Part shown: one piece after another, positions 27,487 through 46,892 of the stretch
Position numbering within the stretch: the stretch's first letter is position 1
How the letters are laid out: each line of letters starts with the position of its first letter
NCBI GenBank assembly: GCA_018401755.1
Contig: JAGYKJ010000007.1
Location: 1-64,000 of the forward strand
Length of the DNA stretch: 64,000 nt
From: Litorivicinus sp.
Lineage (GTDB): Bacteria; Pseudomonadota; Gammaproteobacteria; Pseudomonadales; Litorivicinaceae
Reading direction: 5' to 3'
Translations under genes and position numbers: made by a program
The notes under the pieces: generated by a model
Told to the model about the DNA's origin: nothing
Database searches by the model: none
Seen by the model: the letters and a program-made list of their open reading frames with translations, nothing else

Positions 27487-28599
27487 TTAACTCTTCGGCG
27501 GGAGATCCACCAATTCTTTTTCATAGGCTTCGTGCATGTGGCTGCTCAATCCATTCGCTGCGAGTGACTTGGCAAATAGATCACGCACTTCTTGAGATTC
27601 ATCTGCATAGTCGATCTGGTGACCACCAATTCGGCGACTGATCCAGGCCTTCGGCACGCCCTGTGCATTTCGGATGGCAACCCCTTCATATTTGAATGCC
27701 AAGTAACGCGCTGGCGTAGTTCCGGTATTGAAGTGCTGGTGGAACCACATGTTGGGGGGCACGATCATGGTACCCACTTCCCAGTCATAGCGCTCGGGCA
27801 CACCACCTTCTGGCCACATCAGTGAGTACCCAGACCCACTCAAAATGATCACGTGTGCACCGGGACCGTGTGCGTGTGCCTTTTTGTATGTTCCGATTGG
27901 GAACTGCGAGATGTGGCTATTCAACGAGCTCTTCGCGAAGTTGAAACGAATATGTCCACCACCGGCTCCACGCTCTTTGGCCTCGATCAATGGCAAATTG
28001 ACGCCATCTGGAACGAAGTTGGTTTCCAATAGCAGCCCCTTTTGCTCTCCTTTGGCGGAGAAGTAGTCTGGCTCACCATTGAATCGATCCAAGAAGTCGT
28101 AGCGGGTGTTGAAGACAAAATCAGGATCACCATAGGTGTTAATGATTGGAGGTGCATTGGTGACCGAGACAAACCGTGCCGGTTCTTTTCCAGACAGGTT
28201 GTAGTGTTGGTGTACTGTATTAAGGGGAACCGCAAATAAGGCGCCTGGACCCCACTCGAACTCGACTTCAGCACCGGCGAAGTTTTTTACCGTTGTTTTG
28301 CCGTGGCCCGACAAAATCATGATGGTTTCTTCAAACAGTTGGCTCTGTGGTGCGAGCGTACCACCGGCAGGAATCTCACACACATAGCAGTCGTTGGTGG
28401 TGCGTGATGCATCATGGTTGATGTAGACGCCAAGGCCACCACGACGCGCCCATGGCTTTAATTCAACGGTGTTTAAGTTTTGAATATAAAACGCGTCAAT
28501 GACATCAAGACCTTCCTTCCGAATCCACTGCAAATAGGGAGTGTCTTTTTCCTTCGCAAATTTCTTCGCCAGTTCATCAGAGACGATGGCATCTTTCAT
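27487..28599 (-). CDS. Bicupin protein, gentisate-dioxygenase-like fold
   Basis: A 370-residue protein with two cupin barrels. The first (about 70-155) has a weakened metal site (SQLFEETIMILSGHG, NTVHQHYNLSG). The second (about 225-315) has a good metal triad (KAHAHGPGAHVIILSGSGY with His-x-His, and NMWFHQHFN). The fold and length fit ring-cleaving dioxygenases of the gentisate/salicylate type, and the better second site could hold Fe(II). Dioxygenase activity is inference. It is homologous to the tandem bicupins at 43028 and 44251. Divergent from the EutA-like gene across 149 bases, so probably co-regulated with it. It carries its own terminator. Confidence 0.75.
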   Translation of the reverse strand: MKDAIVSDELAKKFAKEKDTPYLQWIRKEGLDVIDAFYIQNLNTVELKPWARRGGLGVYINHDASRTTNDCYVCEIPAGGTLAPQSQLFEETIMILSGHGKTTVKNFAGAEVEFEWGPGALFAVPLNTVHQHYNLSGKEPARFVSVTNAPPIINTYGDPDFVFNTRYDFLDRFNGEPDYFSAKGEQKGLLLETNFVPDGVNLPLIEAKERGAGGGHIRFNFAKSSLNSHISQFPIGTYKKAHAHGPGAHVIILSGSGYSLMWPEGGVPERYDWEVGTMIVPPNMWFHQHFNTGTTPARYLAFKYEGVAIRNAQGVPKAWISRRIGGHQIDYADESQEVRDLFAKSLAANGLSSHMHEAYEKELVDLPPKS

Positions 28600-28748
28600 G
28601 GTTGGGTCCTTCTTATTTCAGCGGGCTTCCCCCGCAAGACTGAAAAGTGTGCGCTCACACGTTGGCGCAAATGGTAGCAATGAAATAGGCTCGGTTTCGG
28701 ATTTAGCACGTCAAAATCAAAACAGAATGGATATGGGGGCGAGAGTTG

Positions 28749-30380
28749 ATGAGCCAGCGGGATTCCGAAGAGCACGTAAAGACCCAGGCAGAGTCGCATG
28801 CGCTCGACGATCACAATTACGGAACCTTTGGCCAGCACCAGCATGTGCCAGGTCAGCATTATGATCATGATCACGATGATGAGTTCGATGACAGTCCGCT
28901 GGAAGATAATCCGTTGTGGCAGCAGGACAATATTTTTCTGTCGACCGTTGGGATCGATATCGGATCCTCGAGTACCCAAGTGGTCTTCTCGCAAGTCCAT
29001 TTAGAGCGGCAGGGTGAGGCCCTGAGCAGTCGATACGTGGTGGTTGAGCGACGGTTGATTTATCAGTCGCCGATATTTTTTACGCCCTATACCGACGGCA
29101 ATCAGATTGATCCGGGCGCCTTGGGTGCATGCATTGATCAAGCCTACAATGAAGCGGACCTTCGCCCGTATGATATCGATATCGGTGTCGTACTGCTGAC
29201 CGGAGAGGCCCTGCGACGCGACAATTCAGAGCAGATTGCACACCTCATTGCACACAAGGGCGGTGAGTTTTTGTCGGCGAGTGCTGGGCATCACATGGAA
29301 TCAGTGTTGGCAGCACACGGGTCTGGGGCAGTTGCCCACTCGGGTACGCAAGGTCAACGTGTCTTGAATGTGGATATCGGCGGAGGCACGACCAAGTTAG
29401 CGCTGATCGACTCTGGACAGGTCACCTCTAGTGCCGCCTTTCATGTGGGCGGACGACTGTTAGTCATTGACGCCGAAGGTACCATCACACGACTCGAGCC
29501 ACGGTTGGTGGAAATTGCGAGAGGTATCGGCATGACGTTGCATCTTGGCGTGAAAGTGGATCCGACCATGATGGCGAAGATCGCGACAGAGATGGCGCGG
29601 ATGGTGGTTGATGTTCTCTGTGGACGCGCTGTACCGGAAGCCACTTGGCTGACAGACCCCCTGGATTTGTCCGAGCCCATGGATGCCATTGTCTTCTCAG
29701 GCGGTGTCTCTGAATATATTCGTGAGCCTGAGCAAACCGGGCATGGCGATATCGGTCTTGCGCTGGGTCAAGCGATCCGCTCTGCGATCGATGCCAGCGC
29801 ATTACCCGCGCCCGTGGTGCCGGCCGATCAAGGAATTCGGGCAACTGCCTTGGGGGCGAGCGAGTTCAATATTCAGGTCAGTGGGAATACCGGACATATT
29901 TCGGATCCCGGCGCATTGTTGCCCCGCAGGAATTTACCGGTGATCAGCGTCCGGGTGTCTGCGGAGACCGCGACCCGGGCGTCAGTCTGCGCGATGTTGG
30001 ATACTGCTGAGGCGCATTTTGATTTAGTCAATTACAGTGAATGCGCGATCGCCATGTCCTGGGATGGGTATTTTGATTACCCCGCTCTGCGTGCCTTGTG
30101 TGAGGGTGTGCGGGATCATATCAATCAATGGGCTGACCATCGCAGGCCACTGTATTTGTTGTTTGATCGCGATCTGGCGCAGAGTGTTGGACGTATTTTG
30201 GTGGACGAGTTGGACGTGACGCGGCCCATACTGGTCCTCGATGGGTTGGTCTTCCGCGCTTTCGAATTTGTGGACCTGGGCCGGATTCGGTTGCCATCGC
30301 GCACAGTGCCAGTCACGGTGAAATCATTGCTGTTTCAAAATCATGGAATGGCGCCTAAAGCACATGAGGAGAGTCTGTGA
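28749..30380 (+). CDS. EutA-like ASKHA ATPase with His-rich N-terminus
   Basis: A 543-residue protein. Residues about 1-60 are a disordered His/Asp-rich tail (QHQHVPGQHYDHDHDDEFDD). From about 65 it is an actin-like ATPase of the EutA family: phosphate-1 motif TVGIDIGSSSTQ, phosphate-2 motif NVDIGGGTTK, adenosine motif VFSGGVSEY, and the family end RNLPV...VPVTVKSLLFQ. EutA uses ATP to expel damaged B12 from ethanolamine ammonia-lyase. No eutB or eutC is in the window, so the client here is unknown. It heads an operon with the 2Fe-2S reductase (4-base overlap). A TTG at 28746 is a poorer alternative start. Confidence 0.85.
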   Translation: MSQRDSEEHVKTQAESHALDDHNYGTFGQHQHVPGQHYDHDHDDEFDDSPLEDNPLWQQDNIFLSTVGIDIGSSSTQVVFSQVHLERQGEALSSRYVVVERRLIYQSPIFFTPYTDGNQIDPGALGACIDQAYNEADLRPYDIDIGVVLLTGEALRRDNSEQIAHLIAHKGGEFLSASAGHHMESVLAAHGSGAVAHSGTQGQRVLNVDIGGGTTKLALIDSGQVTSSAAFHVGGRLLVIDAEGTITRLEPRLVEIARGIGMTLHLGVKVDPTMMAKIATEMARMVVDVLCGRAVPEATWLTDPLDLSEPMDAIVFSGGVSEYIREPEQTGHGDIGLALGQAIRSAIDASALPAPVVPADQGIRATALGASEFNIQVSGNTGHISDPGALLPRRNLPVISVRVSAETATRASVCAMLDTAEAHFDLVNYSECAIAMSWDGYFDYPALRALCEGVRDHINQWADHRRPLYLLFDRDLAQSVGRILVDELDVTRPILVLDGLVFRAFEFVDLGRIRLPSRTVPVTVKSLLFQNHGMAPKAHEESL

Positions 30381-31369
30381 AAATTTCAGTTCAGGGGTCG
30401 GATACGGCATTTGAGTGTGGGGATGATTACATCCTGCGCGCAGCATTGGGTGAGGGCTTGGGATTCCCCTATGAGTGTGGATCGGGATCCTGCGGGAATT
30501 GTCGGTTTGAGCTGATTGAGGGTGACATTATCTACCCCCATGGCACACCGTCGATTTTGACTGAGAAAGATGCGGCCCGAAACCGGCATTTAGCGTGCCA
30601 GTGCAAGCCGACCACTGATCTGAGCATCAAGGTTCGTTTGTTTTCTGAGTACGCACCCTTGCATCAACCCAGCACCTTCCCGGCCACGCTGACTGACGTG
30701 ATCCCAGTGACGCACGATATTTATGAGTTCCAGTTTGAGACCGATGCTGAGCAGCCATTCAGTGCGGGGCAGTATGCGTTGATCGAGCTACCCGGAGTCC
30801 CAGGGGATCGGGCGTATTCAATGTGTAATACGGGCACCGAAGCAAGGCGATGGGATTTCCAAATTAAAAAAGTTCCCAATGGAAAGGCCTCCGTCACCCT
30901 GTTTGACGATGTTCAGGTCGGTCAACAGGTGCATTTGAGTGGCCCCTATGGCCGTGGGTATTTCCGCGGCTTCCGTGGTCGAGATGTAGTACTTGTTGCA
31001 GGTGGTTCTGGCCTATCGCCCATGGTGTCCATTGCTCGAGCTGCAGCGACTGCTGCACGCCACGGTGAGCAGGTATTTTTCTATTATGGTGGTCGTGGCT
31101 TGGTTGATCTGGCAGGTGAGGCCTTTTTGACGCCGCTTGAGGGTTACGGGGACTGGATGCACTACGCGGCGGCACTGAGCGACTCCGGCGATACCGGTTC
31201 GCATTTCAAAGGGTTCGTGCATGATCTAGTGAAATCAGCGCATGGCGATACGCTCACCGGAATGGATGTGTATTTTGCAGGTCCACCCTTAATGGGTGCG
31301 GCGATGGAAGGGATGATTCGGGAGATGAAAATCCCATCGGATCAAGTGTTTTATGATCGGTTTTATTGA
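30377..31369 (+). CDS. 2Fe-2S/FAD/NAD oxidoreductase
   Basis: A 330-residue reductase with an N-terminal plant-type 2Fe-2S domain (Cys34, Cys39, Cys42, Cys74; YECGSGSCGNCRFE and HLACQC), a middle FAD domain (GDRAYSMCNTG) and a C-terminal NAD domain (VAGGSGLSPMVS, VYFAGPPLM). This is the layout of phenol-hydroxylase P5, methane-monooxygenase reductase and CDP-6-deoxyglucoseen reductase. It passes electrons from NADH to a partner, one at a time. GTG start overlaps the EutA-like stop (GTGA). No oxygenase is beside it, so its electron acceptor may be the EutA-like protein's client or a cupin enzyme. Confidence 0.88.
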   Translation: MKISVQGSDTAFECGDDYILRAALGEGLGFPYECGSGSCGNCRFELIEGDIIYPHGTPSILTEKDAARNRHLACQCKPTTDLSIKVRLFSEYAPLHQPSTFPATLTDVIPVTHDIYEFQFETDAEQPFSAGQYALIELPGVPGDRAYSMCNTGTEARRWDFQIKKVPNGKASVTLFDDVQVGQQVHLSGPYGRGYFRGFRGRDVVLVAGGSGLSPMVSIARAAATAARHGEQVFFYYGGRGLVDLAGEAFLTPLEGYGDWMHYAAALSDSGDTGSHFKGFVHDLVKSAHGDTLTGMDVYFAGPPLMGAAMEGMIREMKIPSDQVFYDRFY

Positions 31370-31378
31370 GAGGTCCTG

Positions 31379-32218
31379 ATGGGTGCGCAAAAAATGACGG
31401 TGAATCGTCTTCAGGCGATGAAGACGCGTGGTGAAAAATCGGTAGGTATCGTTGTCTGGGATGCGGAAATGGCTGCGATCGCCGATCAGGCTGGGGCTGA
31501 TTTTCTGATTGTTGGGGATTCCGTGGGGATCAACCTTTGGGGTCAAACCAATACCCTAGAAATCACCCTTGAAGAGCTCATGGTTGCTGCCCGGGCAGTG
31601 CGTCGAGGCGCTCCCAAAGCGCTGGTATGCGTCGATATTCCCTTTGGTCCTGTCCAAGTCAGCGTTGAGGCAGGCGTCGCAGCTGCAGTCCGTTTGGTGA
31701 AGGAGGCCGGTGCCGATCTGGTGAAGATCGATGCGGCACCAGAGTTTCCAGAGGCCGTTCGTGCAGTGACACAGGCGGGAATTCCTGTGTTTGCGCAGAT
31801 GGGGTTAAGCCCCCAAGCGGCCACCAAGTACGGATTCTCGTTGAGTGATTTGCAACAGCCTGACGTGATTGTCCCAGATGCCATGGTGGCGCAGATGGTT
31901 GAGGAAGCAAAAGCCATGGAAGCGGCAGGTGCGGCCATGATCGACTTGACCAACTCAGGACCGGTGGTCGGTGCGGCCGTGACCGAGGCGGTGTCTATTC
32001 CAGTGATTGGTGGGATGGGTGGTGGACCCTGGCTTGACGGGCGTATTCGGATGATGCACGCGGCCATCGGCTATGGCACCAAGTATCTGGAAAACCCTCC
32101 AGAAACCTATGCATATGTGGCGCAAATTGCCAAAGCTGCGATCGATGAACTGATTGCCGATGTTCGTGCCGGGCGTCAAATCAAAGGGGGTATCGCGGTG
32201 CCCAAGAAGGAGAGTTAA
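31379..32218 (+). CDS. PanB-fold protein with altered active site
   Basis: A 279-residue member of the ketopantoate hydroxymethyltransferase (PanB) / isocitrate-lyase barrel superfamily. The metal-ligand positions Asp47 (GDSVG) and Asp86 (DIPFG) and Lys116 are kept. Other PanB residues are changed: the Glu of KLEGG is Asp118, the His of GHLGLTPQ is Gln140 (AQMGLSPQ), and the Glu of LECVP is Thr. It is unlikely to make pantothenate precursor. An aldolase or lyase on a 2-oxoacid is more plausible. It lies ten bases after the reductase gene and four before the hydrolase. Confidence 0.75.
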   Translation: MGAQKMTVNRLQAMKTRGEKSVGIVVWDAEMAAIADQAGADFLIVGDSVGINLWGQTNTLEITLEELMVAARAVRRGAPKALVCVDIPFGPVQVSVEAGVAAAVRLVKEAGADLVKIDAAPEFPEAVRAVTQAGIPVFAQMGLSPQAATKYGFSLSDLQQPDVIVPDAMVAQMVEEAKAMEAAGAAMIDLTNSGPVVGAAVTEAVSIPVIGGMGGGPWLDGRIRMMHAAIGYGTKYLENPPETYAYVAQIAKAAIDELIADVRAGRQIKGGIAVPKKES

Positions 32219-32221
32219 GCG

Positions 32222-33067
32222 ATGGACTTCATCCAAGCCGATGGGATTCGTACTCATTACCGGATTGAAGGATCTGGGCCTGCCTTGTTGATGTTTTCGC
32301 CTGGTGGATTTGATGCCACCTTCGCAAAATGGTCCGGTCTGGGGCTGTATCAACGCATCGGCATCATGGATTATTTGACTGCGCACTTCACCTGCATTGA
32401 GTTTGACCGGCGGGAGTGTGGTCAATCTGGTGGCCGACTTGAGGTGCTCAGTTGGTCTGCGATGGCCCGTCAAGGTGCAGCCCTCGCAACTGCCCTTGGA
32501 TTTGAGCAAGTGCACGTCATGGGTGGTTGTCTTGGATGCGCTCCGGCTGCGCAGTTTGCGCTTGATTACCCAGCACGCACGCGCTCGACTAATCTCATTT
32601 GGCCCGTTGGTGGTGCACGCTATCGGATGCGGAATGTTGGGCGTTTTTCAGAGCATTTGAATTGGGTCGCAGCACAGGGAATTGAGGCACTGATTGCCCG
32701 AGCGCTGGACGCTGATGTGGGCTTCGCGAAAGATGCATTGTTGGGTCCATGGGGCGGGTCATTGCGCATTGACGCTGATTTACGGGATACGCTTGCCGAA
32801 ATCGATGCCCCGCGCTATCAGGCCCTGGTGTCGGGTTCGCTGAATGCGCTATTTATGGCAGATTCAGCAGCAGGGCCTGCTCCCGAGGCGTTGATGCAGA
32901 TGCGCGGTCCTCGGTTGGTGATTCCGGGGGATGATGAGAGCCACGCTCGCTCGGCTGGTCATTTTGTCGCAGAGTGCCTGCCAGGCTGCACATTGATCTC
33001 GGACGCAGTCGCTGATCAAACGCGGGAGCGTATCTTTCACGTATTCGATCAGTTTTATGCGCAATGA
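32222..33067 (+). CDS. Alpha/beta hydrolase with Cys at the nucleophile elbow
   Basis: A 281-residue single-domain alpha/beta hydrolase. The oxyanion region is FSPGGFD, the strand before the cap is FDRRECGQSG, and the nucleophile elbow is MGGCLGCAP with Cys103 where most members have Ser. Cys nucleophiles occur in dienelactone hydrolase. A His near the C-terminus (DDESHARSAGHF) would complete a triad. It could hydrolyse a lactone, ester or C-C bond of a cleavage product. Last gene of the operon that starts with the EutA-like protein. Confidence 0.78.
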   Translation: MDFIQADGIRTHYRIEGSGPALLMFSPGGFDATFAKWSGLGLYQRIGIMDYLTAHFTCIEFDRRECGQSGGRLEVLSWSAMARQGAALATALGFEQVHVMGGCLGCAPAAQFALDYPARTRSTNLIWPVGGARYRMRNVGRFSEHLNWVAAQGIEALIARALDADVGFAKDALLGPWGGSLRIDADLRDTLAEIDAPRYQALVSGSLNALFMADSAAGPAPEALMQMRGPRLVIPGDDESHARSAGHFVAECLPGCTLISDAVADQTRERIFHVFDQFYAQ

Positions 33068-33200
33068 GACCCGAATGGCAAAGAACAAATCGACACCGCG
33101 TGGATCCTCAGACTCTACGCTTCGTTGATTTGTGTCTGTTCTGGGTCTGAGTCTTGCTGCGCGCCACTGCCTCGCCCAGCAAAATTGACTGAAGTCGTCT

Positions 33201-33232
33201 CGGCACGATGCATCTGGTGATGCTGCGTGCCG
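33201..33232. terminator. Stem-loop between convergent genes
   Basis: Outer arms CGGCACG / CGTGCCG and inner arms GCATC / GATGC form a bulged hairpin between the hydrolase and the binding-protein-like gene. There is no T-run, so termination is possible but unproven. Confidence 0.4.
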
Positions 33233-33235
33233 CGA

Positions 33236-34180: not shown

Positions 34181-34196
34181 GGCATTCTCCTTATTC

Positions 34197-34481
34197 TCAA
34201 CAACAACTGCATCCAATGGCGCCAACCTGTTGCAGACTGATCAATAACCAAGCCGGCGGGTAATCTTCCTGTGTGATCTGCTCAACCGGCTTGAATACCG
34301 TCAGTTGATGCGGAACCTCGTCAAGGACGAACTGAATCTGAACCATCTGCGGTGGGAAGCCTGGCTCCTTGCACCGGTGTTCCTCGATCAACACGTTGAC
34401 TGACTCGTCTAATTTGAATCGAGAGTGGGTTAGCCGATCGAGTCGGTCCACCTCTGTGATCCATCTTGCGCGAGTTCTCAT
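34197..34481 (-). CDS. Small conserved-looking protein ending in CxCC
   Basis: A 94-residue protein with a motif run RWITEVDRLDRLTHSRFKL, then ESVNVLIEEHRCKEPGFPP, LTVFKPVEQITQEDYPPAWL and a C-terminal GCSCC. I recall similar short proteins of unknown function in proteobacteria with the same PPxWL and CxCC end. Three closing Cys could hold a metal or cluster. No export signal. It is the first gene of a pair with the decarboxylase-like gene, hence possibly a helper. Ribosome site is weak. Confidence 0.55.
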   Translation of the reverse strand: MRTRARWITEVDRLDRLTHSRFKLDESVNVLIEEHRCKEPGFPPQMVQIQFVLDEVPHQLTVFKPVEQITQEDYPPAWLLISLQQVGAIGCSCC

Positions 34482-35748: not shown

Positions 35749-35754
35749 TATGTC

Positions 35755-36734
35755 GTGGTCTTTCCTGTCACCCTAGTCACAGGCTTTCTCGGCGCGGGAA
35801 AGACCACACTGATCCAACAGTTGATTCAATCTGGGTCGTTACGTGACGCGTTGGTTGTGGTCAATGATTTTGGTGACCTCTCCATTGATGGACAAATCTT
35901 GGGTCAGGGTGATCAAGATGTCATCGAGTTAGGTGGCGGATGCGTCTGTTGCACGGTACGTGACGAATTTGTCACGACCCTAAAGGCAGCCGTTGAGGCT
36001 CATCCGCGCATGACCTCCGTGTGGGTTGAAACCAGCGGCATCAGTGCGCCCTCTGAATTACTTGCTGTGTTTGAAGCCAATGCATGGTTAACCCAACGGT
36101 TCCGAGTGGAGCGCGTGGTGACTGTGGTCGATACATCGCACGCATTGCGTGATCTCAACGATCGTGATAACGCGATTGATCAGGTGGTCTATGCATCGAC
36201 CGTGATCCTCAATCGGGCCAGTGCGGTCTCTGCCGATGTTCAAGCAGCAGTGGCTGCGCGTATTTCCGATCTGAATCCCTGGGCAACTCAACAGGTCCTT
36301 GATGTCACCACGGTGACGGTTGATCAATTCGGGTCTGCCATGGATTACGGCGATCACAGTCAAATCCAACGATTACAGCATGTGGAGCACTGCGGGCACA
36401 TTCACGCCTCTGGGAGGTCTGTGAGGGGCATCACCACACGCTGATTGGACATGGTGTTGAGTCTCATATGGCGAGAGCGACAGATCCTTTGAATGCTGAG
36501 ATCTTCAGTGGAGCACTGGAGGCTTGGATTATGGCTCAGGGCGAGGGTCTATTGCGCATGAAGGGCGTTTTGACGCTTGATGACGAGGCATATCCGATGA
36601 TCTTGCAAGGCATTCGTGGCCAGGTCTCGGTCGAGCCCTTGTTGACGCATCAATGGCCCGCCGGCTTGTCGACCCTGGTGGTGATTGGCTCTGACCTCGA
36701 TCATGCTGGCCTCGAGGCCTTAATGGGTTCTTAG
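35755..36734 (+). pseudogene. CobW/COG0523 GTPase, frameshifted
   Basis: The first frame (to 36444) carries the GTPase domain: Walker A GFLGAGKTT, ETSGIS, and the metal-binding GGGCVCCTVRDE (CxCC). The base-recognition motif NKxD reads NRAS. The C-terminal CobW domain continues in another frame: CEGHHHTLIGHG then DPLNAEIFSGALEAW and LLRMKGVL up to 36734. The shift falls near 36395-36418, at the His-rich linker. Intact proteins are one chain of about 320 residues that deliver zinc or cobalt to enzymes using GTP. The altered NKxD plus the frameshift point to a decaying gene, although a single-base sequence error is possible. GTG start. Confidence 0.78.
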
Positions 36735-36770
36735 AGCGTTAATTTTGAAAATATTTTGATGGAGTGCGTT

Positions 36771-37481
36771 ATGCCAATCGTTGTCACTGATGTCCCCACG
36801 ATTTCTGACGAAATCATTGCCCGCTATCGGCCACTGAGCGTCGCCACTGTGCATGAAGCTCAGGGTCGAATCGGATTGATGAGTCCTGAGATTCGTCCGA
36901 TTGCCGATGGACTGAAATTGGTGGGTCGTGCCGTGACAGCATCCTGTACCCCAGGTGACAACACCATGATTCATGTGGCAATGGAGCAATGTCGTCCAGG
37001 TGATGTGATGGTCGTCAGCGTCGAATCTCGATCGGACTGTGGATACTTTGGGGACCTGCTTGCGACCTTGATGATGGCGCGTGGTATCGCCGGATTGGTG
37101 ATTGACTCCGGGGTCCGTGACCTTGCTGATTTGCGGCAAATGGGCGTGGCTGTCTTCAGCCGCTGTATTGCTGCGCAAGGGACCGTGAAAGAAACCTTAG
37201 GTGATGTCAATGTTTCAATCGTGTGTGCAGGCCAGTTGGTCCGCCCTGGTGATTTAATTGTTGCTGACGATGATGGGGTCGTGGTGGTCGAGCGGCATCG
37301 ATTGATTGAAGTGGCTGAACTCTCTGAAGCCCGAGAAGCCAAGGAGGCTGGCATTCGTGCAACCTATCGCGAAGGCACCTTGGGGCTTGATTTGAACAAC
37401 ATGCGTGAGCGGTTGCTGCAAAAGGGGCTGACCTACACCACGCATGCAGAGTATCTCAAACTGACTGGTTCATCGTCTTAA
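36771..37481 (+). CDS. ligK: RraA-fold aldolase, LigK-like (CHA aldolase)
   Basis: A 236-residue RraA/HMG-aldolase family protein. The central GYFGDLLATLMMARGIAGLVIDSGVRDL cut here to its ends (GYFGDLLA and IDSGVRDL) carries the Gly-rich substrate loop and the Arg-Asp pair that binds substrate and metal. LigK/ProA cleaves 4-carboxy-4-hydroxy-2-oxoadipate to pyruvate and oxaloacetate, the last step of protocatechuate 4,5-cleavage and gallate pathways. The next gene encodes the step before it, which makes this assignment much stronger than RraA RNase inhibitor. GGAG fixes the start at 36771. Confidence 0.82.
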   Translation: MPIVVTDVPTISDEIIARYRPLSVATVHEAQGRIGLMSPEIRPIADGLKLVGRAVTASCTPGDNTMIHVAMEQCRPGDVMVVSVESRSDCGYFGDLLATLMMARGIAGLVIDSGVRDLADLRQMGVAVFSRCIAAQGTVKETLGDVNVSIVCAGQLVRPGDLIVADDDGVVVVERHRLIEVAELSEAREAKEAGIRATYREGTLGLDLNNMRERLLQKGLTYTTHAEYLKLTGSSS

Positions 37482-37491
37482 GGAGCGCGCC

Positions 37492-38517
37492 ATGATTATT
37501 GATTGCCACGGACACTACACCACGGCATCGCCGAAGTTACAGGCTTTCCGGGATGAGCAGCTCGCGCTATTTGCGGCCGGTAGGCCGACCGATACTGCGA
37601 CGCTTGAGGCGATTTCTGACGATGAAATCGTTGATTCTATTGCTAATAATCAGCTGAAATTAATTCTGGAGCGGGGTGGTGATCTGACAATCTTCTCACC
37701 CAAAGCCTCGGCAATGGGTCAGCATCAGGCAGATCTGCAGACATCGATCCGGTGGGCGCATGCCGCCAATGATTTGATCTATCGGGCCTGTGAGTTGTTC
37801 CCTGAGAATTTCGCTCCAGGCTGTCAGCTCCCGCAGGAAGCCGGTCATCCGATTGACGCCGCTGTTGCTGAGTTACGGCGTTGTGTCGAAGACATGGGTT
37901 TTGTGGGGTGTAACCTCAATCCTGATCCCTCTGGAGGGTACTGGCAATCACCGGCCCTGACAGACCCCTACTGGTTTCCTCTTTATGAAGCCATGGTCGA
38001 GCTGGATGTCCCAGCCATGATTCATGTGTCTGGCTCATGCCATCCGGCCCATCACACGACCGGCGCGCATTACATCAACGGCGATACAACAGCCTTTATG
38101 CAGCTGATTCAAGGCGATCTGTTCAGCCGCTTCCCAACATTACGCTTGATTATCCCACATGGCGGTGGTGCAGTGCCCTATCACTGGGGACGCTATCGTG
38201 GCCTCGCGCAGATGCTCAATCAGCCAGAATTGTCTGGGCATTTGATGAAGAATGTCTACTTTGATACCTGCGTCTATCATAAGCCGGGTGTGGAGTTGTT
38301 ATTGGATGTCATTGGCGTTGATAACGTGCTCTTCGGATCTGAAATGCTGGGAGCTGTGCGTGGGATTGATCCGGATACCGGACATTATTTTGACGATACG
38401 AAGCGATACATCGACCAACTGGCTCTCCCAGCATCCCAGGTGGCACAACTTTTTGAAGGCAATGCGCGACGCGTCTTCCCTCGCCTGGATGCGCGCCTCA
38501 GAGCACAGGGGCATTAA
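37492..38517 (+). CDS. ligJ: Amidohydrolase-fold 4-oxalomesaconate hydratase, LigJ-like
   Basis: A 341-residue amidohydrolase-superfamily protein. The N-terminal MIIDCHGHYTT has the metal-binding His6 and His8 in the exact LigJ arrangement, followed by LTIFSPKASAMGQHQ. HVSGSCHPAHH, IIPHGGGAVPYHWGR and LFGSEM supply the other site residues. Length equals the LigJ family length as I recall it. LigJ adds water to 4-oxalomesaconate to give the LigK substrate. It starts ten bases after the aldolase gene. The ring-cleavage dioxygenase (LigAB or GalA type) that would feed it is not in the window. Confidence 0.85.
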   Translation: MIIDCHGHYTTASPKLQAFRDEQLALFAAGRPTDTATLEAISDDEIVDSIANNQLKLILERGGDLTIFSPKASAMGQHQADLQTSIRWAHAANDLIYRACELFPENFAPGCQLPQEAGHPIDAAVAELRRCVEDMGFVGCNLNPDPSGGYWQSPALTDPYWFPLYEAMVELDVPAMIHVSGSCHPAHHTTGAHYINGDTTAFMQLIQGDLFSRFPTLRLIIPHGGGAVPYHWGRYRGLAQMLNQPELSGHLMKNVYFDTCVYHKPGVELLLDVIGVDNVLFGSEMLGAVRGIDPDTGHYFDDTKRYIDQLALPASQVAQLFEGNARRVFPRLDARLRAQGH

Positions 38518-38523
38518 CGAAGT

Positions 38524-38559: not shown

Positions 38560-38565
38560 AGCGTA

Positions 38566-39330: not shown

Positions 39331-40208
39331 GTGTATTCCTTACATTGGTGGTTGTGTATCGAGGACGGTTGTCCGAAAGAGTAGGCGACGCTCACCAGCG
39401 GGAAAATCGGTCCGCGCATGCATTGAACAGCGATTGTCCCAGACGACCAAGTCGCCAACAGTCCATTGATGCTTGTAAACAAAAGCGTCCTGTTCGCAGT
39501 GATCGAATAAAAACTGAAGGATTTCGTCACTTTCCGTGCGATCTAAGCCTTCGATATGGTCTGTCATGAGGCGGTTAACGTAGAGGCTTTTACGTCCTGT
39601 TTCATGGTTTGTTCTGACCACCGGATGCGAGCACGTGCCAAAGGCGGGCGTGCCTTTATCATCGCCCTTATTCATGGATCCGTAGTGATACAGATGGTTT
39701 GCGCGTAACCCTTTAAGACGTGTTTTCCACGTATCTGGTAGCGTGTCATAGGCGGCATAGCCGCTTGCGAACCAGGTGTCACCGCCGACCGACGGGATCT
39801 CCACTGCGTAAAGTAACGTCGCTTTATCCGGGTTTTCCCGGTGAATCGTGTCGTGATGGAACATCATTTCACCATCCGGGATCGAACCAATCGGTACGCC
39901 ATCTTCCCGAATATTTGAGATCATCATGATCCCAGGTGGTAATGCATCGTACGCTTTTGGCTGAAATTCACGAGGTCGATACGTTGGTTGTCCTTGTTCG
40001 CCGAAAATTCCGGCCGCGGCAAGTTGTTGCTCGTGGCTGATTGCCTGTCCAGGAAATAAGACGACGGCATGTTCTAAGAACGCGTCTCTGATCTGTTGTT
40101 GCACGGACTCGGAAACTGGCTGGCTTAAATCGACCCCGTCAATGCATGCACCAATGGCGTCGGTGAGCGGTGTTATTTGAATCATGATGAGCTCCTCCTG
40201 AGGTATTT
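39299..40208. repeat. Tandem duplication unit A (TauD)
   Basis: First copy of a roughly 910-base unit that holds the whole TauD gene plus the first ten codons of the SDR gene. It is repeated at once as unit B; offset is 910 bases at the left end and 907 at the right because of one codon lost in copy B. By-eye identity is very high. Confidence 0.85.
39340..40185 (-). CDS. TauD/TfdA-family 2-oxoglutarate dioxygenase, copy A
   Basis: A 281-residue Fe(II)/2-oxoglutarate dioxygenase. Iron ligands are His110 and Asp112 (MFHHDTIH) and His256 (NRCSMHARTD); Arg267 or Arg271 (ERRLLFRT) binds 2-oxoglutarate. Family members hydroxylate taurine, 2,4-D, alkyl sulfates or carnitine precursors, and the DNRCSMHART end is nearest the TfdA/taurine group. 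Substrate not known. A strong AGGAGG site precedes the ATG. It is nearly identical to copy B upstream, differing at about nine residues. Confidence 0.9.
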   Translation of the reverse strand: MIQITPLTDAIGACIDGVDLSQPVSESVQQQIRDAFLEHAVVLFPGQAISHEQQLAAAGIFGEQGQPTYRPREFQPKAYDALPPGIMMISNIREDGVPIGSIPDGEMMFHHDTIHRENPDKATLLYAVEIPSVGGDTWFASGYAAYDTLPDTWKTRLKGLRANHLYHYGSMNKGDDKGTPAFGTCSHPVVRTNHETGRKSLYVNRLMTDHIEGLDRTESDEILQFLFDHCEQDAFVYKHQWTVGDLVVWDNRCSMHARTDFPAGERRLLFRTTVLDTQPPM

Positions 40209-41115
40209 ACGATGACGATGCGATTGTCTAACGTCCCCCTGTGTATTCCTTACATTGGTGGTTGTGTATCGAGGACGGTTGTCCGAAAGAGTAGGCGACG
40301 CTCACCAGCGGGAAAATCGGTCCGCGCATGCATTGAACAGCGATTGTCCCAGACGACCAAGTCGCCAATAGTCCATTGATGCTTGTAAACAAAAGCGTCC
40401 TGTTCGCAGTGATCGAATAAAAACTGAAGGATTTCGTCACTTTCCGTGCGATCTAAGCCTTCGATATGGTCTGTCATGAGACGGTTAACGTAGAGGCTTT
40501 TACGTCCTGTTTCATGGTTTGTTCTGACCACCGGATGCGAGCACGTGCCAAAGGCGGGCGTACCTTTATCATCGCCCTTCTTCGTCGATCCGTAGTGATA
40601 CAGATGGTTTGCGCGTAACCCTTTAAGACGTGTTTTCCACGTATCTGGTAGCGTGTCATAGGCGGCATAGCCGCTTGCAAACCAGGTATCACCGCCGACT
40701 GACGGGATCTCCACTGCATAAAGTAATGTCGCTTTATCCGGGATTTCCCGGTGGATCATGTCGTGATGGAACATCATTTCACCATCCGGTAACGAACCAA
40801 TCGGTACGCCATCTTCCCGAATATTTGAGATCATCATGATCCCAGGTGGTAATGCATCGTACGCTTTTGGCTGAAATTCACGAGGTCGATGCAGTTGTCC
40901 TTGTTCGCCGAAAATTCGGGCCGCGGCAAGTTGTTGCTCGTGACTGATTGCCTGTCCGGGAAATAAGACGACGGCATGTTCTAAGAACGCGTCTCTGATC
41001 TGTTGTTGCACGGACTCGGAAACTGGCTGGCTTAAATCGACCCCGTCAATGCATGCACCAATGGCGTCGGTGAGCGGTGTTATTTGAATCATGATGAGCT
41101 CCTCCTGAGGTATTG
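40209..41115. repeat. Tandem duplication unit B (TauD)
   Basis: Second copy of the TauD unit. At 40211-40240 it carries a remnant of the SDR 5' end in which the start codon reads AGG, followed by LDNRIVIV, after which the match ends. This marks the junction and shows the order of copying. Confidence 0.85.
40250..41092 (-). CDS. TauD/TfdA-family 2-oxoglutarate dioxygenase, copy B
   Basis: A 280-residue near twin of copy A with the same iron (HHDMIH, CSMHARTD) and 2-oxoglutarate residues. Changes include PTYRP to LHRP with loss of one codon, Thr to Met next to the iron motif, Asn to Ile in HRE(N/I)PDK, Met-Asn to Thr-Lys in the GS(MN/TK)KGD loop, and Val to Ile near the end. No catalytic residue is lost, so both copies may be active, perhaps on slightly different substrates since the loop changes are near the active site. 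It is the first gene of the minus-strand unit. Confidence 0.9.
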   Translation of the reverse strand: MIQITPLTDAIGACIDGVDLSQPVSESVQQQIRDAFLEHAVVLFPGQAISHEQQLAAARIFGEQGQLHRPREFQPKAYDALPPGIMMISNIREDGVPIGSLPDGEMMFHHDMIHREIPDKATLLYAVEIPSVGGDTWFASGYAAYDTLPDTWKTRLKGLRANHLYHYGSTKKGDDKGTPAFGTCSHPVVRTNHETGRKSLYVNRLMTDHIEGLDRTESDEILQFLFDHCEQDAFVYKHQWTIGDLVVWDNRCSMHARTDFPAGERRLLFRTTVLDTQPPM

Positions 41116-41239
41116 TGGAACGCTTCTACTGTCGCACAAATATCGGTCCGGTTTGGGTGTGCAACCATTTCATTTCGATCGAGCTTTCAGTTTTTTGTGT
41201 ACCGTAATTGCGGGCAATATTATGTAACACGAGGATCGC

Positions 41240-43002: not shown

Positions 43003-43027
43003 TCATGACAACAATGAGGGAATCGCC

Positions 43028-44239
43028 ATGACGGAATGGGTCGAACCAACAGATGAAAAACGCGCGGGCCACGGGACCTTTGGTCGGCCTTTGACGGACT
43101 ATGATCGGTTTATGGAGTCGGAAGGGATTCCGATTTTCCGAGGCTTTGGAGTGCCGCGTTGCCAAGACTTGCCGATGAAGCCCTGGGCTCGCATGGGTGG
43201 CAATGGCACCTATGTGCAGCTCTATGGAACCGAAGGGACCTGGGGGATGTATGTCTGTGAGATTCCGCCACGCCAAGAGTTGAATGTGGAGAAGCACATT
43301 TACGAAAAGAACATCATGGTGTTGGAAGGGCGTGGTGCCTGTGAAGTTTGGCATGACGAGAAGAAGAAGCAGGTGTTTGAGTGGCAGGCGGGATCGTTAT
43401 TTTCGATTCCGGTGAACACCTCTCATCGGATGATCAATATGTCTGGTACGCGTGCGGTGTTTGTGGCGGGAACGACAGCGCCGAACCTGATGAACCTGAT
43501 TGGAGATACCGACTTTATTTTTAACAGTGATTACAAGTTCAACCGGTTTGACGAGAACTTGTCGGATTTCTTCAAGGAGAAGACGGCGATCGAGCCCGAT
43601 CCGATCCGTGGTTTAGCAATGCGTAAGACCAATATCATGGCTGACATTGTGCATGCTGAGTTGCCACTGGATAACCGTCGAAGCCCAGGCTATCGACGGA
43701 TTGAGCCACATATGACGGCAAATAAGTTTTATCTTTGGATCGGTCAGCATGAGATTGGTCGTTACTCGAAGGCCCATGCGCACACGTCCGCAGCCATTTT
43801 GTTCTGCCTGACTGGGAAAGGATATACCTATTCGTGGCCAGAGCACCTGGGTGTGAACCCATGGAAGGATGGGAAGGGTGATGAAGTGATTCGAGTCGAT
43901 TATGAGTATGGCGGATGCGTGAGTGCGGCGCCAGGTGGGGCACGTTGGTATCACCAGCACTTCAATGTCTCAGATGAGCCCTTCCGTTTGACTGCATGGT
44001 TTGGACCAAACCACCCAAGCATGTTGCCTGGTGCGGCACCTGGTCAGAAGACAACTGATTACACGGCGATGGATATCCACGAAGGGGGCACATCCATCCC
44101 CTATTGGTTGGAGGACCCAGAAGTTCGTTCGGAATTCGAGCGCCAACTGAATGCGAATGGTGCGAAGTCCAAAATGGAGCCGCACCGGTATGTGAAACCT
44201 GAAGGTCTGATAGATACCTCGGATCACCACCACCACTGA
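43028..44239 (+). CDS. Bicupin protein, tandem copy 1
   Basis: A 403-residue two-barrel cupin. Barrel 1 (about 70-150) has a poor metal site (EKHIYEKNIMVLEGRG, NTSHRMINMSG). Barrel 2 (about 240-345) has His-x-His in SKAHAHTSAAILFCLTGKGY and a second pair in WYHQHFNVS, fit to bind Fe(II) or another metal. It is homologous to the bicupin at 27487 (shared KPWAR.GG, YVCEIP, KAHAH, HQHFN). The tail ends SDHHHH, a natural His run. Start is ATG 43028 after GAGGGA. Its first 660 bases are identical to copy 2; the 3' part differs in patches. Confidence 0.82.
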   Translation: MTEWVEPTDEKRAGHGTFGRPLTDYDRFMESEGIPIFRGFGVPRCQDLPMKPWARMGGNGTYVQLYGTEGTWGMYVCEIPPRQELNVEKHIYEKNIMVLEGRGACEVWHDEKKKQVFEWQAGSLFSIPVNTSHRMINMSGTRAVFVAGTTAPNLMNLIGDTDFIFNSDYKFNRFDENLSDFFKEKTAIEPDPIRGLAMRKTNIMADIVHAELPLDNRRSPGYRRIEPHMTANKFYLWIGQHEIGRYSKAHAHTSAAILFCLTGKGYTYSWPEHLGVNPWKDGKGDEVIRVDYEYGGCVSAAPGGARWYHQHFNVSDEPFRLTAWFGPNHPSMLPGAAPGQKTTDYTAMDIHEGGTSIPYWLEDPEVRSEFERQLNANGAKSKMEPHRYVKPEGLIDTSDHHHH

Positions 44240-44250
44240 GAGAAACTGTC

Positions 44251-45435
44251 ATGACGGAATGGGTCGAACCAACAGATGAAAAACGCGCGGGCCACGGGAC
44301 CTTTGGTCGGCCTTTGACGGACTATGATCGGTTTATGGAGTCGGAAGGGATTCCGATTTTCCGAGGCTTTGGAGTGCCGCGTTGCCAAGACTTGCCGATG
44401 AAGCCCTGGGCTCGCATGGGTGGCAATGGCACCTATGTGCAGCTCTATGGAACCGAAGGGACCTGGGGGATGTATGTCTGTGAGATTCCGCCACGCCAAG
44501 AGTTGAATGTGGAGAAGCACATTTACGAAAAGAACATCATGGTGTTGGAAGGGCGTGGTGCCTGTGAAGTTTGGCATGACGAGAAGAAGAAGCAGGTGTT
44601 TGAGTGGCAGGCGGGATCGTTATTTTCGATTCCGGTGAACACCTCTCATCGGATGATCAATATGTCTGGTACGCGTGCGGTGTTTGTGGCGGGAACGACA
44701 GCGCCGAACCTGATGAACCTGATTGGAGATACCGACTTTATTTTTAACAGTGATTACAAGTTCAACCGGTTTGACGAGAACTTGTCGGATTTCTTCAAGG
44801 AGAAGACGGCGATCGAGCCCGATCCGATCCGTGGTTTAGCAATGCGTAAGACCAATATCATGGCTGACATTGTGCATGCTGAGTTGCCACTGGATAACCG
44901 TCGAAGCCCAGGATTCAGACGTATTGAGCCGCATATGACGGCAAATAAGTTTTATCTTTGGATCGGTCAGCACGAGATTGGTCGTTACTCGAAGGCCCAT
45001 GCGCATACGTCCGCAGCCATTTTGTTCTGCCTAACAGGCAAGGGGTACACCTTGTCATGGCCTGAACATGTGGGTGTGAATCCATGGAAGGCTGGAAAAG
45101 AAGACCAGGTCGTGCGAGTTGACTATGAGTATGGCGGATGCGTGAGTGCGGCGCCAGGTGGGGCGCGTTGGTATCACCAGCACTTCAATGTCTCAGATGA
45201 GCCCTTCCGTTTGACTGCATGGTTTGGACCAAACCACCCAAGCATGTTGCCTGGTGCGGCACCTGGTCAGAAGACCATTGACTATACCGCAATGGATATC
45301 CATGAAGGGGGGACTTCAATCCCATATTGGCAGGAAGACCCTTACATCCGGGAAGAATTTCATCGGTGTCTACAAGTCAGTGGTGCAACGTCCCGGATGG
45401 AGTCGCATCGATATGAAAAACCCGCGGATCTTTGA
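44251..45435 (+). CDS. Bicupin protein, tandem copy 2
   Basis: A 394-residue twin of copy 1. The nucleotide match is exact from the ATG to about codon 221, then about 60 bases at 45040-45120 and the last 60 codons diverge with many synonymous changes, while the stretch around YEYGGCVSAAPGGARWYHQHF is again nearly identical. This mosaic looks like gene conversion between older paralogues. The metal-site residues (KAHAH, HQHF) are kept. It ends without the His run. The next frame, EutA-like, begins directly after it, so ATPase and bicupin are made from one message. Confidence 0.82.
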   Translation: MTEWVEPTDEKRAGHGTFGRPLTDYDRFMESEGIPIFRGFGVPRCQDLPMKPWARMGGNGTYVQLYGTEGTWGMYVCEIPPRQELNVEKHIYEKNIMVLEGRGACEVWHDEKKKQVFEWQAGSLFSIPVNTSHRMINMSGTRAVFVAGTTAPNLMNLIGDTDFIFNSDYKFNRFDENLSDFFKEKTAIEPDPIRGLAMRKTNIMADIVHAELPLDNRRSPGFRRIEPHMTANKFYLWIGQHEIGRYSKAHAHTSAAILFCLTGKGYTLSWPEHVGVNPWKAGKEDQVVRVDYEYGGCVSAAPGGARWYHQHFNVSDEPFRLTAWFGPNHPSMLPGAAPGQKTIDYTAMDIHEGGTSIPYWQEDPYIREEFHRCLQVSGATSRMESHRYEKPADL

Positions 45436-45446
45436 GAGGCATCGCG

Positions 45447-46892
45447 ATGAAATTTACCTCTGCTGAACGAGCGCTTGTTGAAGCGGATGTCATCAACATG
45501 ATCACCCTGGGTCTGGATATTGGATCGGCCACCAGCCATGTGTCGCTATCGCAATTGACCCTGGTTCGCGGACACAATCGCTATACAGTGACGGAAGCGA
45601 AGGTGATTCATCAAAGCCCAGTCCTTAAAACTCCCTTTGGTGGGGAGGGTCGTGCTCAGATTGATGGGACCGTTCTAGAATCCATGATTGACGATGCGCT
45701 GGCTGAGGCACGGGTAACACGTGACCAGATTGAGTCGGGTGTGGTGATTTTGACGGGTAACGCACTGCGTCGGAATAACGCACGGGAAATCGCCGATGTA
45801 CTTGCTGCGTTTAGTGGCAAGTTCATCTCGATCAGTGCAGGCGATCGCCTGGAATCGACGTTGGCAGCCTATGGGTCGGGCGCTATCGCAGCGTCAAAAT
45901 CAAAGCCTGTACTCAACGTGGATATTGGTGGAGGAACCACCAAGATCACTCACTGCGTGGATGGCAAAGTACATGAATTGACTGCGATCGAGATCGGCGG
46001 TCGGATTTTGCAGGTTTCCTCTGACGGTGTGGTCAACCACGGCGAGCCGACGGTTGCGCTGTTCACCGAGGATGGGGCGATCCCAGTCAATGGTACCCGC
46101 TTGAGCATTGAGGCCATTGATGCGCTGATTCACCGGATGGCGGATACCGTCTGTCAGGCGGTGACGGGCCAAGATGTGGGCATGGCACAGCGGATTGACC
46201 CCATTCACCCGTACCCTGAGGGTGGCGAAATTGTGCTCAGCGGTGGTGTGAGTCAATGGTTGTTGCCGAGTGCGACAGGTGTCAGCGACGATTTGGGACA
46301 ACGCCTTGCCCACGCTGTACAGACAAGACTCATAGCACGCGGATACCAGGTTCGCATTGCCAATGACCCGATTCGGGCGACGGTACTAGGTGCGTCGCAG
46401 CAACGCCTACAAGTCAGTGGTAATACCATCTTTATTTCCGACGAATCGATTCTGCCAATCCGCAATATTCCAGTATTACAGTTGGCCTTTGATGACACCC
46501 CAATCACTGTTGACGGAGTTGTCGATCAGGTGCGACGCGTTGAAGCCCATCAATTGTTCGAAACGGATGCGAAGATGACGGCGCTTGGAGTCAACTGGGA
46601 AGGGTCAGTCACCTATGCGCGTATTGATGCTTTCTGTCGTGGATTGATGACAGCGAGAGCACTCAACGAACATCCAGATGAGCCTTTGATCCTGCTTTTA
46701 GCCCAGGATATCGCGGGATTGATTGGGATTCATTTGAAGGAAGAACTCAATCTCCCAAACCCGATCGTGTGTCTCGATGGCTTGGATCAGGTGGACTTTG
46801 ATTTTATCGATGTGGGCGAGGTCCTCAATCAAACCGGGCTCGTTCCCGTGGTTGCAAAATCAATTCTTTTTCAGACTGGATCGAAGGTCTGA
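45447..46892 (+). CDS. EutA-like ASKHA ATPase, second copy
   Basis: A 481-residue EutA-family ATPase without the His-rich tail of the first copy. Phosphate-1 is TLGLDIGSATSH, phosphate-2 NVDIGGGTTK, adenosine motif VLSGGVSQW, and the end reads RNIPV...VPVVAKSILFQ as in EutA. Length matches classical EutA (about 467). No ammonia-lyase genes are near; its direct neighbours are the bicupins (11 bases upstream) and an aldehyde dehydrogenase. A role in reactivating or loading a metal or cofactor enzyme is inference. The start at 45447 is chosen over an upstream TTG. Confidence 0.85.
   Translation: MKFTSAERALVEADVINMITLGLDIGSATSHVSLSQLTLVRGHNRYTVTEAKVIHQSPVLKTPFGGEGRAQIDGTVLESMIDDALAEARVTRDQIESGVVILTGNALRRNNAREIADVLAAFSGKFISISAGDRLESTLAAYGSGAIAASKSKPVLNVDIGGGTTKITHCVDGKVHELTAIEIGGRILQVSSDGVVNHGEPTVALFTEDGAIPVNGTRLSIEAIDALIHRMADTVCQAVTGQDVGMAQRIDPIHPYPEGGEIVLSGGVSQWLLPSATGVSDDLGQRLAHAVQTRLIARGYQVRIANDPIRATVLGASQQRLQVSGNTIFISDESILPIRNIPVLQLAFDDTPITVDGVVDQVRRVEAHQLFETDAKMTALGVNWEGSVTYARIDAFCRGLMTARALNEHPDEPLILLLAQDIAGLIGIHLKEELNLPNPIVCLDGLDQVDFDFIDVGEVLNQTGLVPVVAKSILFQTGSKV

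Follow-up and report, generated by a model that had tools for sequence, protein, structure and literature searches.

Each type of bicupin considered here has its own EutA-like ATPase subtype, encoded in the same operon, in a divergent one or a few genes away, and this holds in distant bacteria. We analysed a window of 64,000 nucleotides from Litorivicinus sp. (contig JAGYKJ010000007.1) that contains two such pairs. A partnership of the EutA-like proteins with the cupin, a probable metalloenzyme, is well supported, because the neighbourhood recurs and no EutB was found elsewhere in the genome. The ATPase family, EutA, is a known one, and the bicupin would be its new client. The sequence-only reading of the window had supposed that these ATPases may service a cupin metalloenzyme or another partner, as a cofactor-repair or metal-loading pair; the partnership has gained support, and the repair or metal-loading role is still one that we infer.

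EutA-like and bicupin genes in the Litorivicinus genome

The genes concerned are as follows, in coordinates of the window.

27487..28599, minus strand: bicupin, type B, 370 aa (Cupin_2, 43.8 bits)
28749..30380, plus strand: EutA-like ASKHA ATPase, type B, with a His/Asp-rich N-terminal tail (PF06277, 350 bits)
30377..31369, plus strand: [2Fe-2S]/FAD/NAD reductase, BenC type (Fer2, FAD_binding_6, NAD_binding_1)
31379..32218, plus strand: PanB-like protein (ketopantoate hydroxymethyltransferase family), in the operon of the type B EutA-like gene (PF02548, 206.8 bits)
32222..33067, plus strand: alpha/beta hydrolase, in the same operon (PF00561)
35755..36444, plus strand: CobW/G3E GTPase (metallochaperone family), 229 aa (PF02492, 142.7 bits)
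36756..37481, plus strand: RraA-like protein, 4-carboxy-4-hydroxy-2-oxoadipate aldolase type (NF006731, 301.6 bits, cut-off 179)
37492..38517, plus strand: Amidohydro_2 protein, adjoining the RraA-like aldolase (PF04909, 182.6 bits)
43028..44239, plus strand: bicupin, type C, copy 1, 403 aa (Cupin_2)
44251..45435, plus strand: bicupin, type C, copy 2, 394 aa (Cupin_2)
45447..46892, plus strand: EutA-like ASKHA ATPase, type C, without a His-rich tail (PF06277, 300.4 bits)
49533..50228, minus strand: monocupin, 'cup6' family (Cupin_2; 69% to L118:1-678)
50134..50688, minus strand: monocupin, 'cup9' family (Cupin_2; 74% to L134:7205-7864)

The arrangement agrees with what had been read from the letters. 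The type B EutA-like gene is divergent from its bicupin gene; its ORF spans 28746-30380 on the plus strand, with TTG at 28746 as first codon and the ATG at 28749 as likely start. The type C gene (ORF 45432-46892, plus strand) likely starts at the ATG at 45447, 11 bases past the stop of the tandem bicupin. Both proteins match PF06277, for which the Pfam cut-off is 27 bits, over their full length and keep the ASKHA phosphate motifs. The bicupins are homologous, at 33% between 27487 and 43028 and 94% between the tandem type C copies, whose DNA is 95.5% identical over 1092 bp.

A Pfam scan of 40 of the window's ORFs detected no EutB or EutC. The possibility raised earlier, that an eutBC operon elsewhere might explain both copies, gained no support from a genome-wide search for EutB, which found none (2.19 Mb, 7 contigs, 99.25% complete). 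In place of this EutA client, the neighbour of the ATPase in the window genome is a bicupin. A third EutA-like gene, split into two frames, occurs together with a third bicupin on contig C6 at 116.4-119.1 kb; this broken EutA-like copy is 70 kb away.

The reductase gene overlaps the stop of the type B EutA-like gene, and its product, which scores 155.4 bits with BenC, below the equivalog cut-off of 430, is possibly an electron donor or the reductase of a Rieske oxygenase. The PanB-like protein scores below the panB equivalog cut-off, and the CobW/G3E GTPase has 229 aa in the window versus 318-328 aa in several genus relatives. The RraA-like protein (274.2 bits with TIGR02798, below the cut-off of 304.5) gives a hint of an aromatic meta-cleavage pathway.

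Recurrence and phylogeny of the pairing

The bicupin survey loci are the best 80 of at least 541 confirmed bicupin places, and locus counts out of 80 refer to that best 80 unless another set is named. EutA matches occur in all 80 bicupin genomes, and an EutA-like gene lies on the same stretch at 64 of the 80 loci (54 of the 70 outside the window's genus). In each of the remaining 16 genomes, two or more EutA matches lie elsewhere (top match of each genome between 3.5e-157 and 6.8e-183), among which EutB-linked EutAs are possible in the 10 genomes that fell outside the EutB search. The best EutA scores in these 16 are 525-609 bits, versus 187-524 in the five EutB-linked EutAs of the Pseudomonadota survey. 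In genome G531, the score is only barely above the EutB-linked range.

By gene clustering, EutA is the commonest bicupin neighbour (63 of the best 80 loci), the next reaching 29 of 80. The distance from EutA to the nearest bicupin exceeds 300 bp for 33 of 77 EutA genes on genome contigs, often with an ABC importer between them, and one of the four EutA-likes in genome G554 lacks a full bicupin and has two monocupins only. All four plasmid records with a bicupin match show the pairing. When EutA was taken first (genomes G640, G743, G754 and G765), six of six EutA-likes adjoined a bicupin. One outcome named beforehand as refuting, the lack of such a neighbourhood in other genomes, did not come about: it recurs in alpha-, beta- and gammaproteobacteria and in actinomycetes.

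Base rates in Pseudomonadota (E <= 1e-25) were 6 of 398 genomes for EutA and 1 of 398 for the bicupin. In 249 genomes of one order, chosen regardless of bicupin, EutA was found in six and bicupin in five of the same six (Fisher p = 3e-8 when the centre genome is left out, kinship uncorrected); the sixth EutA, in the genome lacking a bicupin, adjoins EutB. These profile searches scored the top candidates per genome (3 for EutA and 4 for bicupin in the 398 genomes, up to 6-7 in the 249-genome sample), and may have missed some members. EutB is present in 6 of the 50 bicupin genomes searched, out of 70.

In the tree, a single branch (SH-aLRT 99) separates 98 bicupin-linked from 11 EutB-linked rows. 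The bicupin-linked rows had been found via bicupins, and L153 forms a very long branch. EutB is close by in all 11 EutB-linked rows. Loci L068-L077 were left out of the tree, tail and pair counts because their contigs, judged by equal lengths, are those of genus loci L046-L052 and L064-L067. A mirror-tree comparison of 60 adjacent EutA-bicupin pairs gave a Mantel r of 0.68 (0 of 2000 permutations), to which we give little weight because the species tree is uncorrected and four pairs are apparently mis-assigned. In those four, the EutA is of type B whereas the bicupin that faces it in head-to-head orientation is of type C.

We rejected the LigK-type pathway as a general feature of these loci. 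RraA-like genes occur on 3 and amidohydrolase genes on 4 of 80 stretches (70 genome-contig loci from beyond the genus, together with 10 further stretches), and the hint therefore applies to no more than the window's genus and a small number of others. Type C relatives have an aldo/keto reductase beside EutA.

We found no description of EutA tied to a bicupin in the open PMC literature, subscription papers being outside the scope of the search. The 'EutA' of ectoine work is a name clash only, the available text of PMC5924519 and PMC4334477 dealing with ectoine genes. In a Phyllobacterium plasmid record, an EutA-like gene directly after a bicupin carries the name 'ethanolamine ammonia-lyase reactivating factor EutA', and the bicupin is listed as a hypothetical protein. 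The EutA name is probably wrong for the entire bicupin-linked branch.

Predicted metal site of the bicupin and features of the ATPase

Three histidines in the C-terminal cupin of the type B bicupin, H242, H244 and H287, do not vary among the 72 relatives aligned (out of 111 sequences) and are presumed to be metal-site residues. The AF2 model (pLDDT 90.9) is matched best by salicylate 1,2-dioxygenase (2phd_B, Z 21.1, rmsd 5.4, 272 aligned) and second by gentisate 1,2-dioxygenase (3bu7, Z 20.6); Z is 19.1 for oxalate decarboxylase (5vg3_A) and 19.3 for MncA. The lead of the dioxygenases is only about 2 Z, and oxalate decarboxylase (OxdC) ranks first in Foldseek. By sequence, the best solved match to the type B bicupin has E 0.013, and no solved relative of the type C bicupin was found at E 0.1.

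Gentisate and salicylate dioxygenases share the bicupin fold with the window protein at only 12-15% identity, and the C-terminal HxH...HxH of 3bu7 aligns with it weakly (E 0.015). In salicylate dioxygenase the iron is held by an HxH motif in the N-terminal cupin, which is missing from all 72 aligned bicupins. The window bicupin scores 25 bits with the NCBIfam family for 5-aminosalicylate dioxygenase, versus a cut-off of 650. We know of no ATPase partner for gentisate or salicylate dioxygenases, and many cupin enzymes need no ATPase. Oxalate decarboxylase and germin match in fold and have a metal site of three His and one Glu, but the Glu ligand 4-5 residues past HxH is missing from the bicupin C-terminal cupin, where position 248 is A in 70, F in 1 and T in 1, and position 249 is H in 59, V in 9, I in 3 and Y in 1 of the 72 sequences.

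The type B ATPase model (pLDDT 85.9) has the PPX/FtsA/HgdC-activator fold, and by sequence no solved relative of the type C EutA was found at E 0.1. The phosphate motifs are essentially invariant across 53 EutA-like rows (53 of 73 sequences were aligned). At least four His occur in the N-terminal tail of 59 of 95 bicupin-linked rows (three rows with no detectable phosphate-1 motif being left out), whereas none of the 11 EutB-linked rows has such a tail. Two subtypes, types A and B, mostly carry it. The window's type B ATPase has 8 His in the 70 aa ahead of the phosphate-1 motif and its type C ATPase has none there, which means that the function shared by the subtypes cannot depend on the tail.

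HypB and CobW/G3E proteins are His-rich nickel or zinc chaperone NTPases, and like the tailed EutA-likes they combine an NTPase and a His-rich tail near a presumed metalloenzyme client. They are, however, P-loop GTPases, whereas the EutA-likes are ASKHA ATPases and type C is tail-less. HgdC/BcrAD-type ATPases activate 2-hydroxyacyl-CoA dehydratase and benzoyl-CoA reductase, each being dedicated to one metalloenzyme, and share the ASKHA fold (4ehu, Z 15.3; 9gai, Z 15.1). Their conserved cysteines, which serve an inter-subunit Fe–S cluster, are missing from the EutA-likes: the top Cys column reaches 51% of the 53 rows, and we therefore see no conserved Fe–S site.

Possible roles of the ATPase

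We give about an even chance to the hypothesis that this separate EutA branch has the bicupin metalloenzyme as its client and acts as an ATP-driven reactivase or metal-loading chaperone. The bicupin would be a non-heme enzyme whose metal, probably Fe(II), sits at the three His of the C-terminal cupin and may be prone to loss or oxidation. Its most likely activity would be that of a ring-cleaving dioxygenase in a pathway for aromatic compounds or organic acids. The ATPase would bind the inactive bicupin and spend ATP to open it, letting the dead metal or ligand out and fresh metal in; in types A and B, the His-rich tail could hold or deliver that metal. Such action would parallel that of EutA, with metal replacing cobalamin. 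A repair or metal-loading role is consistent with the ASKHA fold, the invariant histidines of the bicupin and the His-rich tail.

Alternatively, the EutA-like protein could be a small-molecule ASKHA kinase or phosphatase in the bicupin's catabolic pathway, the two sharing a substrate without protein contact. The ASKHA fold takes in exopolyphosphatase/GppA, the closest solved folds to the model (Z 17.3), and sugar kinases (6jdb, Z 14.4), and both genes occur in catabolic clusters with importers. We consider this unlikely, given that the full-length match is to EutA, which acts on a protein according to the available text of PMC9426561, that the His-rich tail is left unexplained, and that the EutA-bicupin pairs are kept while companion genes vary between clusters.

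The client might instead be another protein of the cluster, such as a Rieske oxygenase, a cup6 or cup9 monocupin or the PanB-like protein, with the bicupin just the best-conserved marker. Rieske genes occur at 12 and the cup6 and cup9 families at 18 and 15 of the best 80 loci, the genome-wide search placed Rieske matches, four in all, at three sites of contig C6 less than 50 kb from the window, and one EutA-like (L185) adjoins monocupins only. This seems rather improbable: at these bicupin-chosen loci no other candidate comes near EutA's 64 of 80, a bicupin adjoined every EutA-like of the EutA-first sample, the same genome-wide search found no Rieske gene inside the window, and the nearest Rieske match is about 10 kb from the third pair.

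A role as ATP-driven reductive activator of the HgdC or RACo kind, in which the protein works with the [2Fe-2S] reductase to re-reduce a bicupin iron that has become Fe(III), is quite improbable. The reductase gene directly 3' of the type B EutA-like gene, the presence of such reductases (FdxRed) at 18 of the best 80 loci, a Pyr_redox_2/Reductase_C reductase in the equivalent slot of L046 and the HgdC-type structural match would agree with it, but the cysteine columns described above do not, genus types A and C lack a [2Fe-2S] reductase beside EutA, and the reductase is often beside Rieske genes, which it may serve. Its count of 18 of 80 loci and this frequent Rieske linkage also led us to drop the idea that the reductase is a constant third member of the partnership.

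That these are ordinary EutAs serving another adenosylcobalamin enzyme is hardly credible, despite PF06277 membership and three B12-binding-domain matches in the genome, since those matches are on other contigs (C4 and C5), EutB is absent, the two proteins reach at most 289.4 and 240 bits with the NCBIfam EutA equivalogs, less than half of the cut-off of 598, and the branch is distinct from EutB-linked EutAs. We rejected a B12 enzyme as client for want of linkage to the B12-binding-domain genes, and ethanolamine catabolism because EutB is absent from the window genome and from 44 of the 50 bicupin genomes.

More tentatively than the role itself, we suggest that the pair may be the first known ATP-driven reactivase or metallochaperone of a cupin oxygenase, with three subtypes matching three kinds of bicupin. 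Should the two proteins form a repair system, ASKHA reactivases of the EutA family would not be confined to cobalamin enzymes, the inactivation of mononuclear iron dioxygenases would have a dedicated ATP-driven remedy, and a family of bicupins now named as hypothetical proteins would gain a likely chemistry.

EutA-like genes and bicupins in the genome and its genus

The sequence-only reading placed two EutA-family ATPases beside bicupin genes in the window, and both are borne out as ORFs matching PF06277 (350 and 300.4 bits against a cut-off of 27). Their scores with the NCBI EutA models are 289.4 and 240 against 598, short by half or more.

28749-30380, EutA-family ATPase (type B), divergent from the bicupin gene at 27487-28599
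45447-46892, EutA-family ATPase (type C), 11 bases past the stop of the second of the bicupin genes at 43028-44239 and 44251-45435

A third EutA-like gene, of type A, lies on the same contig in two frames (8441-9956 of L005, a locus of this genome outside the window), with a third kind of bicupin directly 3'. The TctC gene at L005:7253-8111 is also frame-split; both are single ORFs in genus relatives (e.g. L041, L035), and the splits reflect either decay or assembly error. No EutB was found anywhere in the genome (2.19 Mb, 99.25% complete).

EutA-family matches occur in 14 of 22 genomes of the genus, the window's own included. The genus loci have the gene orders TctA-TctC-EutA-bicupin-TauD (type A), bicupin divergent from EutA-reductase-PanB-like-hydrolase (type B) and EamA-bicupin(s)-EutA (type C). 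Loci L035-L067, from the genus and order, carry 30 EutA-like genes with products of 400 aa or longer, 27 of them with a bicupin no more than 300 bp away; the exceptions are L054, truncated at a contig end, and L062 and L063, true EutAs adjoining EutB in other genera of the order.

Some details differ among these loci. The tandem bicupin genes (43028-45435) share 95.5% DNA identity over 1092 bp, and the relative L050 (5042-7439) likewise carries two in tandem with near-identical N-terminal halves, a likeness that suggests gene conversion. Tandem TauD-type dioxygenase genes (39340-40185 and 40250-41092; 97.2% DNA identity over 846 bp) would reflect either recent duplication or gene conversion. 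The CobW/G3E GTPase at 35755-36444 is shortened (229 aa against 318-328 aa in several genus relatives). Between the type C EutA and an aldehyde dehydrogenase, L050 has an aldo/keto reductase gene (8907-9902) and other relatives an unlabelled ORF of ~328 aa; the corresponding window interval, 46892-47100, is too short for such a gene. In the slot 3' of the type B EutA, a Pyr_redox_2/Reductase_C reductase replaces the [2Fe-2S] reductase in L046 (7860-9080), and an ORF of about the same size occupies it in L052. Rieske-domain matches lie at 75, 85-86 and 106 kb of the window's contig; from the window to ~119 kb, this contig may form a single large catabolic region that includes the three pairs of EutA and bicupin.

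Recurrence of the pair in distant bacteria

Searching GTDB contigs with an alignment of the bicupin confirmed at least 541 places, of which the best 80, ten from the window's genus, were analysed. These 80 include Hyphomicrobiales, Comamonadaceae, Puniceispirillum, Marinobacter, Caulobacter, Mycolicibacterium and Actinophytocola; the marine gammaproteobacteria Litoricola and Litorivicinus are among the closest named relatives of the window bicupin in this set (86-89% identity), which makes that group the probable origin of the window. The neighbourhood recurs in other genomes and distant groups, with an EutA-like gene on 64 of these best 80 stretches, among them 54 of the 70 from other genera; all 16 remaining genomes have at least two EutA matches each elsewhere.

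When the neighbouring genes were clustered, EutA was the most frequent companion of the bicupin (63/80), well ahead of an ABC ATPase in second place (29), followed by an NMT1-like protein (21), a solute-binding protein (19), a reductase (18), single cupins (18 and 15), an IclR regulator (17) and a Rieske oxygenase (12). The GTDB loci hold 77 EutA genes that encode 400 aa or more; 44 of these have a bicupin no further than 300 bp away, and 70 no further than 5 kb. An ABC importer separates the two in many alphaproteobacteria. As to the chief alternatives to a direct partnership, we consider it unlikely that the EutA-like protein and the bicupin share a pathway without contact, and less likely still that the EutA-like protein serves another client in the cluster.

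As a baseline, among 398 Pseudomonadota genomes an EutA match (E <= 1e-25) occurs in six, the window's own and five in which EutB adjoins EutA by coordinates, and the bicupin only in the window's own. EutB occurs in 79 of the 398 versus 6 of 50 bicupin genomes (50 of the 70 outside the genus). Haloarchaeal EutAs, taken as a contrast set, adjoin EutB and EutC. On plasmids, an EutA match lies beside the bicupin in 4/4 records with a bicupin match; in the public annotation of one record, the EutA-like protein is named as the EutA of ethanolamine ammonia-lyase, and its bicupin neighbour is called a 'hypothetical protein'.

In a sample not chosen by bicupin, 249 genomes from the order of G554 (a Beijerinckiaceae bacterium), EutA occurs in six and the bicupin in five, all among those six (exact test without the centre G554, p = 3e-8, kinship ignored). 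The sixth genome, G820, has EutA next to EutB and lacks a bicupin across the 19 kb fetched; coordinates and score of this EutA are identical to those of G314 in the 398-genome search. A bicupin directly adjoins all six EutA-likes of G640, G743, G754 and G765, and three of four in G554. The fourth (L185) is preceded by two single-cupin genes, of families cup9 and cup6, and no bicupin; the same families, which recur with the bicupin module, occupy 49533-50688 of the window.

The EutA branch and its ATPase

Phylogeny separates the bicupin-linked EutAs: in a tree of 109, a quick one with some very long rows and with bicupin-linked rows collected via bicupins, one branch (SH-aLRT 99) parts 98 of these from 11 EutB-linked EutAs, all adjoining EutB. 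Types A, B and C fall into separate subclades. ATPase motifs are essentially invariant among aligned EutA-likes, and a His/Asp-rich tail precedes the first phosphate motif in most of types A and B. At least four His stand before this motif in 59/95 bicupin-linked rows versus 0/11 EutB-linked; plasmid type A proteins have three, and type C lacks the His-rich tail. Nickel and zinc chaperones typically have tails of this kind.

The predicted model of the ATPase (pLDDT 85.9; residues 1-33 under 50) has the fold of an ASKHA ATPase. Its nearest match is exopolyphosphatase (Z 17.3); FtsA, PilM and the 2-hydroxyisocaproyl-CoA dehydratase activator (15.3) also match. That the EutA-like protein is a reductive activator is nonetheless improbable: no column of the aligned EutA-likes has cysteine above 51%, which speaks for a conformational activator rather than one that transfers electrons. 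EutA itself swaps spent cobalamin on its client (PMC9426561).

The bicupin and its proposed partnership

In 72/72 aligned relatives the C-terminal cupin keeps H242, H244 and H287, and an HxH in the N-terminal cupin occurs in 0/72. The C-cupin position that carries a metal-binding Glu in oxalate decarboxylases is His, Val, Ile or Tyr in bicupins, so the putative metal site looks like a three-His site. The confidently predicted model (pLDDT 90.9) most resembles salicylate 1,2-dioxygenase (Z 21.1), then gentisate 1,2-dioxygenase (20.6); MncA (19.3) and, after it, oxalate decarboxylase (19.1) score only slightly lower. Foldseek alone ranked oxalate decarboxylase first. Two members of the window's type B cluster, a LigK-type aldolase (301.6 bits against a cut-off of 179; below that of a second model) and an Amidohydro_2 protein, suggest meta-cleavage of aromatics, yet outside the genus their genes occur in 3/80 and 4/80 stretches, respectively. 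From these fold matches and neighbours, a dioxygenase is the likeliest predicted activity.

We found no description of an EutA-bicupin pair in the open-access literature. The analysis shows that both genes are present and paired, and it shows the branch, the tail, the conserved His residues and the predicted folds. We infer a switch of client, with a cupin metalloenzyme taking the place of a cobalamin enzyme, which would account for why the genes co-occur, why the branch stands apart and why the subtypes match, as well as for the metal-type tail of two subtypes. The EutA-like ATPase and the bicupin would then be physical partners in a system that binds and exchanges metal, and the bicupin would probably act as a dioxygenase.
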